From Arcobacter arenosus (GTDB lineage: Bacteria > Campylobacterota > Campylobacteria > Campylobacterales > Arcobacteraceae), in assembly GCF_005771535.1 (NCBI RefSeq), contig NZ_VANU01000001.1:620001-684000 (forward strand): 64,000 nucleotides of DNA, written 5' to 3'. Of this stretch, positions 21,819 to 49,122 are shown one piece after another (position 1 is the stretch's first letter; each line of letters begins with the position of its first letter). The notes beneath the pieces are model-generated. The model was not told where the DNA came from, did no database searches, and saw only the letters and a program-made list of their open reading frames with translations. The position numbers and the translations under genes are program-made.

Positions 21819-22475
21819 ATGGGAAACAAGGTTTTTACAGTTGGACCTAAAATATTAAAACTTTTAGATGAAAAGGGATTAACTCAAATTTCATTAATTA
21901 GGTTTCTTCTGAAAAAAGATAAAATAGAAGGCAAGGAAAGAACGAGATTTAATAGATATTTTAATGGAGTTCATGAATTTCCAACAGATTATATTGCTTC
22001 GACTGCAATATTTTTAAAATGTGACCCAAAAATACTTTTAGAAGAGAAAGGGGAATATGTTCCATCTGCAAGGAAAATACCTGTATTGGGACTTAGCTCA
22101 TGTGGAGTCCCTTCGCCTTGCTTTGATTTTTCATCTATTGATGAAACTATAGATTATGTAGGAGAAGAAGAAAATGTATATGCGGTTAAAGCCTTTGGAG
22201 ACTCTATGGAAACATATATTTTTAATGAGGATATTGTAATTTTTGAATCTTTAAAAAATAATGGGATAGAAGACGGTGAAGTTGTGCATTATAGTTACGA
22301 ATATGGTTCACCTGACCCTGATGATAATGGAATAAAAGTATTTAAAATAAGGGAAGATGGGAGCATATATTTAAAACCTCTTAATGGAGAATATGACAAT
22401 ATTGAAGTTAAGTATCCAGAATTTCTTAAAATGTCAAGGCTCGTGTCGGTTCAGAAAAAACCAAAACGATTTTAG
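21819..22475 (+). CDS. Phage repressor, LexA/S24 type (CI-like)
   Basis: A 218-residue protein. The N-terminal region (about 8-75) is a helix-turn-helix DNA-binding domain. The C-terminal S24 peptidase has Ser129 in AFGDSMETYI and a candidate general-base Lys176 in VFKIRED. Cleavage would occur at Cys95-Gly96 in LSSCGVPS, so RecA-stimulated self-cleavage and induction by DNA damage are expected. It is flanked on both sides by operator clusters. GGAAC precedes the ATG. Confidence 0.92.
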   Translation: MGNKVFTVGPKILKLLDEKGLTQISLIRFLLKKDKIEGKERTRFNRYFNGVHEFPTDYIASTAIFLKCDPKILLEEKGEYVPSARKIPVLGLSSCGVPSPCFDFSSIDETIDYVGEEENVYAVKAFGDSMETYIFNEDIVIFESLKNNGIEDGEVVHYSYEYGSPDPDDNGIKVFKIREDGSIYLKPLNGEYDNIEVKYPEFLKMSRLVSVQKKPKRF

Positions 22476-24006: not shown

Positions 24007-24570
24007 ATGTGTATAGATGATTTACCATCAACTTATTATCCTTGGTATTCAACTAAAGATGAAAGTATTAAAAAAAGAAAAGGATGGGTATATGTTGTAA
24101 AAACTCCAAAAGGATACAAGATAGGCAAAACTCATTCTTTAAAAGCAAGAATTAAACAACTTGCAAAAGAATTCTTTGATGATATTGAAATTATACATTT
24201 CATACATTTTGATGAATTTGTATCAGAAAAAGAAAAAGCTTGTCATGAATTATTTAAAGACAAAAATAATGGATTTAGGCTTGAATATTTTGACCTTTCT
24301 AATAAGGATATTGAACTGATAAAAAGCGAAATTTTTATAGATAAAGTTTTAAATATTGAATCTAAAATTGCAGAAAAAAATAAAGAAGAACATACAAAAA
24401 ATAGCTTAAGAAAAATTAGAAAGTTAGAAAAGAAGAAAGATGCCATTAATCAAGAACTGAAAAAAATAAATGAGCAAATCAGGAAAGAGCTTAATTGGTA
24501 TAAAGAATATCCTTCTTCACTCCAAAGGCTTACAACGGATGGACAAATTGAAGTAATGAAATATTTATAA
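24007..24570 (+). CDS. T5orf172 (GIY-YIG-like) domain protein
   Basis: A 187-residue protein. Residues 25-110 carry GWVYVVKTPKGYKIGKTHSL and later EKACHELFKDK, the pattern of T5orf172/MUG113 domains, which share the GIY-YIG nuclease fold. The C-terminal 70 residues form a basic coiled coil. It is the first gene of the rightward early operon, directly controlled by operator cluster 2. A nuclease or host-takeover role is possible. Confidence 0.87.
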   Translation: MCIDDLPSTYYPWYSTKDESIKKRKGWVYVVKTPKGYKIGKTHSLKARIKQLAKEFFDDIEIIHFIHFDEFVSEKEKACHELFKDKNNGFRLEYFDLSNKDIELIKSEIFIDKVLNIESKIAEKNKEEHTKNSLRKIRKLEKKKDAINQELKKINEQIRKELNWYKEYPSSLQRLTTDGQIEVMKYL

Positions 24571-24773
24571 CCATTCATAGTGTCCTATTCGTAGGACATT
24601 ATTGAGTGAGTTACTCAAACACTCCAACCGACCTAGCATCAGGAGTATAAATAAAGTATGAGTTGTCGAGATACTATTGTTAATTAGTCTTATTATTGTT
24701 AAGTAGGTTTACAGTTATCCTACTACCTATTGGTGAAAATCGGAATCATTAAACTGTTTAAGAAATTTTACAC

Positions 24774-24856
24774 AAGTGCAACAGAACACGAATACGAGTA
24801 ATAGTTTAAGTTAAAAATTTATGGAAATCCGTTCATAAATAGTCTGTGTTGCACTT
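24774..24856 (+). ncRNA. Tandem RNA element, copy 1
   Basis: AAGTGCAACA (24774-24783) and TGTTGCACTT (24847-24856) form a perfect 10-bp closing stem around a 63-base interior. The 5' arm is followed by GAA and the 3' arm is preceded by CATAAATAGTC, features shared with copy 2. Read on either strand the stem is the same; the plus strand is assumed because it is the operon leader. Confidence 0.6.
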
Positions 24857-24869
24857 ATTTAAGATTTTT

Positions 24870-24983
24870 CACATGAGGACAACAGAATTCCTTATTATTA
24901 AATTTTTAGATTTAGCGTTTATTCCTAAAAGATGATTTCCATTTGATGTAATCAGGCATTAAATAGTGTGTTGTCCTTATGTG
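24870..24983 (+). ncRNA. Tandem RNA element, copy 2
   Basis: CACATGAGGACAACA (24870-24884) pairs with TGTTGTCCTTATGTG (24969-24983) over 15 bp with one G-U. The arms are followed by GAA and preceded by CATTAAATAGTG, as in copy 1. Between the copies, two base pairs of the stem differ (T-A to G-C and G-C to A-T), both changes preserving pairing. Confidence 0.62.
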
Positions 24984-25011
24984 AGAGATTAAAAAATATT
25001 AGGAGGAAGTT

Positions 25012-25401
25012 ATGGAACAAGTTTTAACAGAAAATGACAAAGTTAGAAATATTTTAAGACTACAAAATATTACGTCTGAAAATATAAACATAGAAATGAT
25101 TAAAGAGTTAGTTGAAATATTAAATAAACACTTAAAAGAATCAGGCATTTATCATGGTACGGCAACTATTGATAGACTTAGAAATGCAAAATTTATAACC
25201 ATGAGTACAGAAGATTGGGAAGGACGTGAAGCGGTTAGCTTTAATAGTGATGGCTTCATAGGTTTTTGTGGATGGGCTGATTCAAAAAATAGTAAACCAA
25301 TATTAAATGCTGTGACCGAATGGGCTTTAAATCATAGAGAAAAACAATTTAATCTTCATGTAGCTAAAAATTATAGTGAATTAGATTTATTAGAGGACTA
25401 A
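25012..25401 (+). CDS. Phage protein of unknown function (129 aa)
   Basis: Starts at ATG 25012 behind a good AGGAGG site at the end of the structured leader. The protein contains ITMSTEDWEGREAVSFNSDG and FCGWADSKNSKPILNAVTEW. No family recognised. As the first gene after the tandem RNA elements its expression may be the one most affected by them. Confidence 0.75.
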   Translation: MEQVLTENDKVRNILRLQNITSENINIEMIKELVEILNKHLKESGIYHGTATIDRLRNAKFITMSTEDWEGREAVSFNSDGFIGFCGWADSKNSKPILNAVTEWALNHREKQFNLHVAKNYSELDLLED

Positions 25402-25954: not shown

Positions 25955-26226
25955 TGAGTGCTTTAGAATCACATGATTATGACTTAATGAAACATGAAGA
26001 ACGTGACGGAATGTGGTTGGCGATTGAAGAAGAAAATATCGCTGAGTTTAGAGAAATGTTAGAAGAAGCTTTTACCTTTGCAAATAATGAGAAGATAGAA
26101 CAAGACACTATTTTTACAGAGTTAAAAACCATCTTTAGAGCATATTTTGATAAATGTGACATGGTTATTTCAGAAGGTTATACTTTTGAACAATTGACTA
26201 ATACATTGATAAGGGGTGAGAGATGA
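25954..26226 (+). CDS. Phage protein of unknown function (90 aa)
   Basis: The preferred start is ATG 25954, which shares a base with the upstream TAA. The protein is acidic and helical (REMLEEAFTFANNEKIEQDT). It immediately precedes the Rad52-like gene and overlaps it by 4 bases, so it may belong to the recombination module. Confidence 0.68.
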   Translation: MSALESHDYDLMKHEERDGMWLAIEEENIAEFREMLEEAFTFANNEKIEQDTIFTELKTIFRAYFDKCDMVISEGYTFEQLTNTLIRGER

Positions 26227-26867
26227 ATATTAAAATATTAAAAGAGCCACTCAACCAGAGGCATATTAAATCAAGAAAAGAAGGTTATGGACAAGTTGGA
26301 TATATAACTGGAAGCCATGCAATAAGTGAAGCAAACAGAGCATTTGAGTATAAATGGAGTGCTGAAACTTTAGATATGAATTTAGTTCAAACAGAAATGA
26401 AGCCAAAGAAAGACAAGCAGGGGAATGACACAAATATTATGCTTAATTATGTGGGTTACACTTGTAAAGTTAAGGTAACTGTTGATGGACTTATTCGTGA
26501 AGGCTACGGATTCGGACAAGGTATTGATAAGGATTTAGGAAAGGCACATGAAAGTGCAACTAAAGAAGCTGAAACAGATGCACTTAAAAGAGCCTTGAGA
26601 ACATTTGGCGATATTTTTGGATTAGCATTGTACGAAAAAGATAACCAAAATATTACAAATGAATCAAAAGAATCTTATCAAATTATTACAGATGAACAAG
26701 TTAAATATATCAGAAAATTAAATCAAACAATAAAAATAGATGAAAAAGAACTTTGCACCTTCTTTATGATTGACAAGTTAGAAGATTTAAAAGGTCGTGA
26801 CTATAACAAGATGATTGAGATAATAAACAAACAGATTGAAAACAAAAAAGCAAAGGATAAAAAATGA
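26223..26867 (+). CDS. Rad52/Rad22-family single-strand annealing protein
   Basis: A 214-residue protein with the Rad52 core: LNQRHIKSRKEG, EANRAFEYKWSAET, VGYTCKVKVTVDGLIREGYG and the highly diagnostic AHESATKEAETDALKRALRT followed by FGDIFGLALYEKD (about 117-145). It would anneal complementary single strands produced by the exonuclease encoded next. The C-terminal 60 residues are a separate helical extension. ATGA overlaps join it to both neighbours. Confidence 0.93.
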   Translation: MNIKILKEPLNQRHIKSRKEGYGQVGYITGSHAISEANRAFEYKWSAETLDMNLVQTEMKPKKDKQGNDTNIMLNYVGYTCKVKVTVDGLIREGYGFGQGIDKDLGKAHESATKEAETDALKRALRTFGDIFGLALYEKDNQNITNESKESYQIITDEQVKYIRKLNQTIKIDEKELCTFFMIDKLEDLKGRDYNKMIEIINKQIENKKAKDKK

Positions 26868-27727
26868 GTTGCAATATCTTAAATTTAAAACAAGGTAGTG
26901 AACTTTGGCACAAGACAAGACTTGAACATTACAAGACTGCTTCAAGAACTCCTATTGTATGTGGAGTAAGTCCTTTTCAATCTAAAGAACAATTAGCTAT
27001 GCAGTTAAGAGGTGAATATGAGCCTTTTTATTCTAAGGCAATGCAAATGGGTAATGAGTTTGAAGATGATGTGAGAACACTAGCAGAAATGAAATTCAAT
27101 GATACTTTTAAGCCTTTAGTTGGGATAAAAGATGATTACTTAGCTTCACTTGATGGAATCAATTTTTCAAGAGATACTATTATTGAAATCAAGGTTAGTG
27201 AAAAAACTTTCAATGATTTAAAAGATGGAATTATTCCTGATGTTTACTATTTTCAAATTCAACATCAAATGATGGTTTTTGATGAAGTAGACCAAGCCTA
27301 CTTAGTAGCTTATAATCCAAAAACTTGTGAAACTGCATATAGTAAGCCGATACTTCCTGATATGGAAGCTATTTTGTTTATTAAAGAATCATGGAAAAGG
27401 TTTGATGAAGAAAAAGACACTTTAAAAGTTGAAGAATTTGATATGTCAGAAAATGATGAATTTCTTATGGCAGTTGATAATTATAAGCTTCACATGAAAG
27501 AGTTAGAAGAAGCAAAAGAAAAAGCAGAAGATGCAAAAAAAGCACTTCTTGAATTTTATCAAGGTGGTAAAACTTTTGGCGGTGGAGTTACTATTTCTTA
27601 TACTAAACCTTCTAAATCGGTTAATTATTCGCAACTGTATAAAGATAACAAAGCACTTTTAAAAGATGTGGATTTATCTAAATATGAAGGAGAAAGAAAA
27701 GGTAGTTTTAGAGTGAGTGTAAAATGA
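26864..27727 (+). CDS. YqaJ-type viral recombination exonuclease
   Basis: A 287-residue lambda-exonuclease-like (PD-(D/E)xK) nuclease. The active-site residues are visible: Glu65 (MGNEFED), Asp97 (LASLDGIN), Glu108 and Lys110 (IIEIKVS), and Gln131/Gln133 in YFQIQHQM. The N-terminus GSELWHKTRLEHYKTAS is the usual Exo/YqaJ start. It should degrade one strand from ends and load the Rad52-like annealing protein. Confidence 0.94.
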   Translation: MSCNILNLKQGSELWHKTRLEHYKTASRTPIVCGVSPFQSKEQLAMQLRGEYEPFYSKAMQMGNEFEDDVRTLAEMKFNDTFKPLVGIKDDYLASLDGINFSRDTIIEIKVSEKTFNDLKDGIIPDVYYFQIQHQMMVFDEVDQAYLVAYNPKTCETAYSKPILPDMEAILFIKESWKRFDEEKDTLKVEEFDMSENDEFLMAVDNYKLHMKELEEAKEKAEDAKKALLEFYQGGKTFGGGVTISYTKPSKSVNYSQLYKDNKALLKDVDLSKYEGERKGSFRVSVK

Positions 27728-31678: not shown

Positions 31679-31992
31679 GTAAGAATGAAAGTGCAAAAGA
31701 AAATCAATTAGGGATATTTGAACATTTAAGTCTTATTCCTAAACTATTTGAAAAAATAGAATCTTTAGAGTTAGAGATAAAAGAGATTAAAAAAGAAGTT
31801 AAACATGAATATGATTTAACTAAAAGAAGTGATGTTTTAGAATATTTAGGTATCAGTAATAGCACACTTGAAAATATGATGAAAGATGGAAGGTTTAGGC
31901 AAGGCAAACACTTTATCAAAAACATTAAGGGAAATAAGTCTAAAATCAGTTTTATAGAAAGTGCGATTAAAGAGTATAAGGAAAAGAAATGA
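31675..31992 (+). CDS. Excisionase-like HTH protein
   Basis: A 105-residue protein. After a coiled coil (about 20-48), residues 50-100 look like a MerR/excisionase-type winged helix: LTKRSDVLEYLGISNSTLEN, MMKDGRFRQGKHFIKNI. It overlaps the integrase gene by 4 bases, the usual position for an Xis or recombination directionality factor. The direct role is inferred from this context. Confidence 0.75.
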   Translation: MSKNESAKENQLGIFEHLSLIPKLFEKIESLELEIKEIKKEVKHEYDLTKRSDVLEYLGISNSTLENMMKDGRFRQGKHFIKNIKGNKSKISFIESAIKEYKEKK

Positions 31993-33017
31993 AATTCTTT
32001 AATCGTAAAGGGATGCTTTATGTTCGCATAAATGGGGAGAGATTTTCCACAAAGCTAAAAGATACAAAAGCAAACCGAAAATTATTTGAGTCATATTGTA
32101 AAAATGATGAGTTCTTTATAAAATTTAATGTTGGTAAAAGTGTGCCTAAACTAATTGAATTGTGCGAAGAAGTCCTAAGAGAAAAAGAAAGCACTCTTAA
32201 AACTTCATCTTATCGTAGTTACGATAGTTTATATAATAGTAAAATTGTACCATATTTTAGCAAAATGTTAGTATCAGAAATCAAGCCTAGACATATTGAA
32301 GAATGGTATAAAACTTTTGATGATAGACAAAGTATAAATACTTGTGAAGCAATACTAAGACCATCTTTTGAGAAAGCACTTATTAGAGAGTTTATTACTT
32401 CAAGCCCATTGGTAATTAAGAAGCCATCAAGCACAACTGACTATTCAATTAATCCATTTAACTTATTAGAAATTCAAAAGCTAATAAAAAATGCTCCACC
32501 TATTTTAAAAAACTTAATTCCTATTTTGTTTTATACTGGTGCAAGACCAAACGAGATACTTAATCTTAAATGGGAAAATGTTAATTTAAATATTGGAGAT
32601 ATTTATATAACAGATTCTAAGACTAAATCAGGGATTAGGACTATTGATATGCTTAGTCAATGTGAAATCTATTTGAGAGAACAATTCAAGATAACTGGAA
32701 ATAGGGAGTATGTTTTTCTTAATACAAAAAACTTACCTTACTTATCAAGTGCAAATTTCAACTACTCTTGGGATAAACTCTTAAAAACTTGCAATCTTGA
32801 AAAAAGAGGAATATATCAATTAAGACATAGTTTCGCTTCAAATATGCTTTCTAATGGAGAGGATTTACTTTGGGTATCTCAAATGCTAGGACATAAAAAT
32901 CCAAGCATTACACTTAGTAGATATTCTAAATATATCAAGTCAAAAAGAGAAAGAAAAACTACTTTTTTAGATGATTTTAGCACAAAATCGACACACCAAG
33001 ACCTACAAGCACGATAA
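31989..33017 (+). CDS. Tyrosine-family phage integrase
   Basis: A 342-residue site-specific recombinase. Visible catalytic residues are Arg186 (TGARPNEIL), Lys213 (SKTKSGIR), Arg279 in YQLRHSFAS, His302 (LGHKNPS) and Tyr312 (LSRYSKY). The first His of the usual HxxR box is Tyr276. The N-terminal SAM-like core-binding domain covers about 50-145. It is last in the rightward operon, beside the right prophage end. Confidence 0.94.
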   Translation: MKFFNRKGMLYVRINGERFSTKLKDTKANRKLFESYCKNDEFFIKFNVGKSVPKLIELCEEVLREKESTLKTSSYRSYDSLYNSKIVPYFSKMLVSEIKPRHIEEWYKTFDDRQSINTCEAILRPSFEKALIREFITSSPLVIKKPSSTTDYSINPFNLLEIQKLIKNAPPILKNLIPILFYTGARPNEILNLKWENVNLNIGDIYITDSKTKSGIRTIDMLSQCEIYLREQFKITGNREYVFLNTKNLPYLSSANFNYSWDKLLKTCNLEKRGIYQLRHSFASNMLSNGEDLLWVSQMLGHKNPSITLSRYSKYIKSKRERKTTFLDDFSTKSTHQDLQAR

Positions 33018-48998: not shown

Positions 48999-49122
48999 AT
49001 TAACATTGGATTCTGTCAATAATCTTGCAAAAAAAGCCCTAAACATAGCAATAAAATAGCATTTCAAATCTAAATATAAAACTTACAATTCTGCAAGGTT
49101 CATGCCAGAATCCAATGTTAAT
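48999..49122. promoter_or_regulatory. Mirror-symmetric divergent promoter pair (porin / tctC-2)
   Basis: ATTAACATTGGATTCTG (48999-49015) and its exact reverse complement CAGAATCCAATGTTAAT (49106-49122) lie at the two ends. Each overlaps a 19-bp box: 49012-49030 for the porin (TTGCAAGATTATTGACAGA in gene orientation, -10 TAATAT) and 49091-49109 for tctC-2 (CTGCAAGGTTCATGCCAGA, -10 TAATCT). Each -10 begins 9 bases after its box. The two transcription units are therefore likely coregulated. Confidence 0.8.

Follow-up and report, generated by a model that had tools for sequence, protein, structure and literature searches.

In the leader of the phage lambda N transcript from pL, which heads an early recombination-type operon, an RNase III site lies in a long double-stranded stem. 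The effect of RNase III on lambda N mRNA has been reported previously (PMC8708148). In phage HK022, early transcripts carry the put RNA, an element of about 70 nt made of two adjacent stem-loops in a V shape with a triplex in stem I, and copies of put are found downstream of both early promoters (PMC9378689). In Campylobacter jejuni, the precursor of CJnc190 forms a long duplex between its 5' and 3' parts around a core and is cut by RNase III (PMC8687705), and the small RNA DicF of the Qin prophage can be cut by RNase III from an operon mRNA (PMC10448788).

Here we describe two adjacent elements, E1 and E2, that lie in the putative 5' leader of a prophage operon with recombination genes, read rightward, in a 64-kb stretch of Arcobacter arenosus DNA (the whole stretch analysed, hereafter the window). 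This location had been proposed in a preliminary description of the sequence and is supported by our analysis. Like putL and putR of HK022, which bring about antitermination in cis through contact with RNA polymerase, E1 and E2 are paralogous copies of a probable structured RNA in an early-operon leader; however, put is present at both early operons, whereas E1 and E2 stand in tandem at one and their hairpins lie inside closing helices. The lambda N leader resembles the locus in having a structured RNA with a long stem between the promoter region and the first gene, but E1 and E2 are tandem, have no sequence relation to it, and are accompanied by no recognised antitermination site or N gene. 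In CJnc190, which comes from a bacterium of probably the same phylum, a core is flanked by a long duplex as in E1 and E2, although the CJnc190 sRNA is encoded on the chromosome, has an antisense partner and acts on a known target, while E1 and E2 are duplicated and located in a putative phage mRNA leader. DicF can be excised from a prophage operon mRNA, as may be the case for E1 and E2, but it lies inside its operon and has known targets, in contrast to elements that lie in a leader and have no Rfam match. To our knowledge, how phages of this AT-rich lineage regulate their early transcription is little understood. Phage leader RNAs with a defined structure are an established kind, and we found no described family with the same sequence or layout as E1 and E2. 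A duplicated leader RNA that keeps its structure despite sequence change would be a concrete control element open to testing, as one molecule already contains two natural versions of it. The coordinates of the elements and of the surrounding genes are listed in Table 1.

Table 1. Elements E1 and E2 and their genomic surroundings (positions in the window)
Feature	Position	Strand	Evidence or remark
S24-type repressor	21819-22475		leftward operon diverges from repressor
Gene with T5orf172/MUG113 (GIY-YIG-like) domain, upstream of leader	24007-24570	+	domain match
Possible E1 outer extension, 8 bp	24763-24770 with 24860-24867	+	inverted repeat
E1 core, 83 nt	24774-24856	+	R1 covariance model match 100.6 bits (by construction), fold
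E1 closing helix 5' arm, AAGTGCAACA	24774-24783	+	pairs with 24847-24856, 10 perfect bp
E1 junction GAA	24784-24786	+	same in E2
E1 apical hairpin, 9 bp, loop AATCCG	24817-24840	+	fold, alignment and ensemble
E1 junction AAATAGT	24837-24843	+	same in E2 and in the G026 half-element
E1 closing helix 3' arm, TGTTGCACTT	24847-24856	+	partner of 24774-24783
E2 including full 22-bp closing helix	24863-24990	+	contains the preliminary 24870-24983
E2 closing helix 5' arm	24863-24884	+	pairs with 24969-24990
E2 junction GAA	24885-24887	+	same in E1
E2 apical hairpin, 9 bp	24941-24964	+	3 pairs differ from E1 on both sides
E2 junction AAATAGT	24961-24967	+	same in E1
E2 closing helix 3' arm	24969-24990	+	pairs with 24863-24884
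Shine-Dalgarno AGGAGG of first operon gene	25001-25006	+	read from sequence
First operon gene, 129 aa, phrog_24658 (unknown function)	25012-25401	+	
Rad52-family annealing protein	26223-26867	+	Pfam PF04098, E 4e-30
YqaJ/RecE-like exonuclease	26864-27727	+	Pfam PF09588, phrog_434
Tyrosine integrase, right end of rightward gene block	31989-33017	+	Pfam PF00589, phrog_1

Judged from their sequence, which agrees with the preliminary description for 24774-24983, E1 and E2 are diverged tandem copies of one element. In the fold prediction each copy consists of a closing helix, a large asymmetric internal loop and an apical hairpin, and the two copies have in common the motifs CAACAGAA and CAT/CATT-AAATAGT; the shared GAA and CAT-AAATAGT pointed out in the preliminary description are real in both. 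The first nucleotides of AAATAGT in E1 are at the same time part of the 3' arm of its apical hairpin. The duplicated unit takes in the left flank TTTAAGA..TTT.ACA (24757-24786 compared with 24858-24887), so that the duplication starts near 24757 for E1 and near 24858 for E2. The closing helix of E2 comprises 22 contiguous base pairs, 3 of them G-U, and exceeds every other contiguous helix of the whole window that has a loop of 30-130 nt, the runners-up reaching 17 bp; the maximum for the same loop range in three shuffled versions of the window was 16 bp. The closing stem of E1 has 10 perfect bp, and that of E2, first put at about 15 bp from 24870, proved longer. Within E2 we also noted a 20-codon frame (MRTTEFLIIKFLDLAFIPKR, 24873-24935) that starts in the 5' arm, lacks a clear Shine-Dalgarno sequence and makes up most of the additional loop length of E2 over E1. 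A leader-peptide reading of this frame was rejected, as it is not kept in E1.

An indication that the structure matters comes from the differences between the copies. Across the apical-hairpin stretch the copies align without gaps over 28 nt (24816-24843 with 24940-24967). Nineteen core pairs form in both: 11 are invariant, 3 are changed on one side via G-U and 5 are changed on both sides, two of the latter in the closing stem (T-A to G-C and G-C to A-T) and three in the apical hairpin, which the preliminary description had overlooked. All 8 variable core pairs thus still pair, and shifting the partner by 1-3 columns lowered pairing from 100% in register to 37-56%. When independent drift was simulated with an equal number of differences (13 of the 38 paired sites changed), the survival of all 19 pairs had a P-value of 5e-6 and at least 5 two-sided changes a P-value of 1.6e-4, in a comparison of two copies within one phage that amounts to effectively one divergence. 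These results confirmed the preliminary report of two adjacent paralogous elements with pair-keeping differences, including its two closing-stem changes, and made the case stronger than it had been stated. Its claim of "direct evidence" that selection acts on an RNA structure went too far, because two copies provide one comparison, with no independent homologues for R-scape-type covariation, and because template-switch correction could mimic compensation. Taken together, we consider a conserved RNA structure in E1 and E2 likely.

Folding of the region agreed with this picture. The stretch 24774-24983 gave a folding z of -4.0, with none of 200 shuffles equally good, and extended E2 gave -5.4 on the plus strand compared to -3.9 on the minus strand. 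Read from the plus strand, the 61 proposed pair positions include 8 G-U, 1 A-C and 1 C-U, and this excess of G-U over A-C favours an RNA that is read rightward. Ensemble probabilities calculated over the whole leader exceeded 0.9 for the core of E1, for the closing helix of E2 and for each of the two apical hairpins, and the pairing probability was 0.91 for the closing helix of E1 and 0.97 for that of E2. The outer 8-bp extension of E1, in contrast, reached only 0.04-0.10; it is rarely formed because its bases are common with the 5' arm of E2. The distance from E2 to the Shine-Dalgarno sequence and ATG of the first gene is 22-28 nt, and this gap suits a role in mRNA processing or in translation equally well; the end of E2 lies 22 nt ahead of the start codon of the 129-aa gene, with AGGAGG in the interval. 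A simple promoter scan of the leader region gave results at chance level.

To our searches for relatives the elements yielded little. Rfam 15 contained no match at the gathering score and no relevant one at permissive thresholds, the best sub-threshold match (E 0.43) being an irrelevant plant miRNA family, which agrees with the initial view that no known family is involved. A covariance model built from E1 and E2 (R1), a step suggested at the outset, recovered both copies, the only matches in the window, and found nothing convincing apart from them in 104 genomes of the family and 399 of the order; nor was there a convincing match in related viral contigs or at 16 Rad52 loci related to that of the window. 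The other R1 scores were at most 32 bits, as chance predicts (top matches inspected). Scanning IMG/VR and the GTDB genomes by pattern returned only this prophage plus chance matches, mostly intragenic. Viral contig UViG_2899713430, represented by two IMG/VR loci, carries an identical copy of the leader region. A match in Dysgonomonas (L018/L241) was discarded as a coincidence, having a 6-bp stem and lying antisense to a coding frame. When the repressor, exonuclease and integrase were used as baits, we obtained one related phage, which is without the element. Relatives of the 129-aa gene occur in Vibrio, Bacillus and Listeria phages, and the three that we opened lie inside gene runs without a comparable leader. 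The predicted structure of the 129-aa protein was too poor for use (mean pLDDT 58).

The sole relative that we found is half an element in genome G026 (G026:C1:1393721-1393774), with 82% identity over 54 nt and a match E of 2.7e-6 for that genome. Its local score of 59 compares with a maximum of 31 in 500 shuffles of the local region and with 34-41 for shuffled queries over 256 kb. The half-element keeps the hairpin at the equivalent place and the block TCATAAATAGTCT-TGTTGC-CTTATT, and it has no complementary 5' arm. It is located in the leader of another prophage, in the same orientation, directly before the Shine-Dalgarno sequence of a 213-aa gene that is followed by a Rha antirepressor. The 213-aa gene is unrelated to the first gene of the window operon, and the leader segment thus occurs, in these two sequences, before unrelated genes. 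Since the downstream gene differs in this way, the action of the segment is likely generic and not autoregulation of one gene.

As the most plausible of several possibilities, we tentatively favour a structured leader in which host RNase III cleaves or binds the duplexes and would thereby adjust the operon mRNA. The long duplexes, above all the 22 bp of E2 (two helical turns), would be cut or bound by the enzyme, as happens in the lambda N leader and the CJnc190 precursor, and a cut would make the operon mRNA begin 20-30 nt ahead of the first Shine-Dalgarno sequence and alter the stability or translation of the message. The cut-out cores could persist as small RNAs, and something further may recognise them, as the fixed junctions and loops suggest. 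E2 has the duplex length of an RNase III site (about two turns, 20-22 continuous bp) and would make a good substrate, whereas the reliable helix of E1, just 10 bp, is short for one and its extension competes with E2. The host carries an RNase III gene (TIGR02191, 249 bits) whose product has 3n3w, the C. jejuni enzyme, as its nearest solved structure, in agreement with a host from the Campylobacterota. Given that conservation does not extend to the downstream gene, a generic leader function is the best fit, and the missing 5' arm in G026 means that the long duplex either was lost there or is not the essential part. If E2 is an RNase III site, leader processing of the lambda/T7 type would be extended to Campylobacterota prophages. 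Cleavage by RNase III leaves GAA, AAATAGT and the apical hairpin unexplained, and therefore a protein-binding operator comes close behind. Under this less probable reading, a phage or host RNA-binding protein would bind the core of internal loop and hairpin, twice for avidity, and repress or activate translation or stability of the operon mRNA. Unpaired junctions and the apical hairpin are among the fixed parts, as for a recognised motif, and the elements are near the Shine-Dalgarno sequence; yet no candidate binder was identified, the different downstream gene in the sole relative makes autoregulation by the first gene unlikely, and the Shine-Dalgarno sequence is mostly free (0.85) in the fold from 24757. 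Its sequestration by the E2 loop (UUCCUAA with UUAGGAG) was at roughly chance level and is not claimed.

The antitermination element proposed in the preliminary description has so far found no support. A put-like nascent RNA acting on RNA polymerase to read through terminators of the roughly 8-kb operon would fit the early-operon leader position and the two stem-loop units, as in put (PMC9378689), and the G026 leader does hold an exact core of the host rrn boxA (GTTCTTTAAC, L169:10348-10357). We nevertheless regard it as unlikely: R1 finds no copy before the leftward operon, whereas HK022 has put at both; the hairpin is nested in a long closing helix, unlike the two adjacent stem-loops of put; intrinsic terminators in the rightward operon are about as frequent as chance predicts (3 against 2.5 expected); the window leader (24571-25011) has no boxA within 2 mismatches of the host rrn CGTTCTTTAACAATA; and the boxA core of G026 is kept neither in its relative G021 (GTTCCTTGAC) nor in G015. 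The 3' block UGYNCUUAU is only loosely like the boxA of lambda and is buried in the helix. That E1 and E2 represent a new class of phage leader RNA in Campylobacterota acting on RNA polymerase or the Nus machinery, an analogue of put with an unrelated fold, is rather doubtful. We give similarly little weight to two trans-acting phage sRNAs that the leader would release and that would pair with targets through their unlike internal loops. The closed cores of about 60-80 nt, the diverged loops and the precedents of CJnc190 and DicF would suit such a pair, but its best duplexes with 54 ribosome-binding regions of the window were no better than those of shuffled loops, and neither E1 nor E2 has its own terminator. 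Should the elements prove to be an antiterminator or a source of sRNAs, they would constitute a new RNA class. A feature of the DNA itself, either inverted repeats corrected as quasi-palindromes or sites for a DNA-binding protein, is improbable. It draws on the near-perfect inverted repeats in the arms of both elements and on the ability of template-switch correction to imitate compensation; however, correction should yield Watson-Crick pairs, yet the G-U pairs outnumber the A-C and C-U mismatches, and the internal loops are uncorrected. The arms are unlike between the copies, contrary to an operator, and the elements share no word of at least 11 nt with the repressor/leftward promoter region. 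Most improbable is a functionless structured relic of a tandem duplication. The narrow occurrence, in a single prophage type and as one half copy elsewhere, would agree with a relic, but unselected divergence would break pairs (P-value of 5e-6, as above, for keeping all 19). We also rejected a ToxIN-like type III toxin-antitoxin RNA. In such loci a ToxN-type toxin gene follows short, nearly identical repeats in tandem; here the units are diverged, and Pfam gave no match for the first two operon genes (129 and 117 aa).

In addition, the G026 island contains other noncoding sequences. A region of about 440 nt (L169:10125-10561) is 80-94% identical between species, with copies L287 (G021:C1:82097-82606, minus strand) and L288 (G015:C1:27716-28050, minus strand), and it precedes Rha-type antirepressor genes in G021 and G015. 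The G026 copy has no Rfam match, and the 3' part folds there into a rod closed by 16 bp (z -4.6); on this sequence evidence the region is possibly an undescribed structured RNA. The same island has a tandem pair of units of about 60 nt at L169:10597-10716 (TGTCGGATTAAAGTTCCTTCC..AGCCCACTCTAGGAGAGA), and ahead of another of its genes, at about L169:9403, part of this motif is found again.

Several further features were noted around the operon. In Bacillus phage SPbetaL4 (L254), the relative of the 129-aa gene lies four genes downstream of Gad1, presumably an anti-Gabija protein, and this is possibly a counter-defence neighbourhood. Within the rightward phage block of the window, a PAPS-reductase-family gene (PF01507, 28521-29336) could have a role in DNA modification or counter-defence. 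An exact 11-nt direct repeat (AATCAGGCATT) is present in the apical loop of E2 (24950-24960) and in the coding region of the first gene (25139-25149). Finally, a 17-bp perfect inverted repeat (ATTAACATTGGATTCTG) with arms 90 nt apart is found at 48999-49122 of the window.
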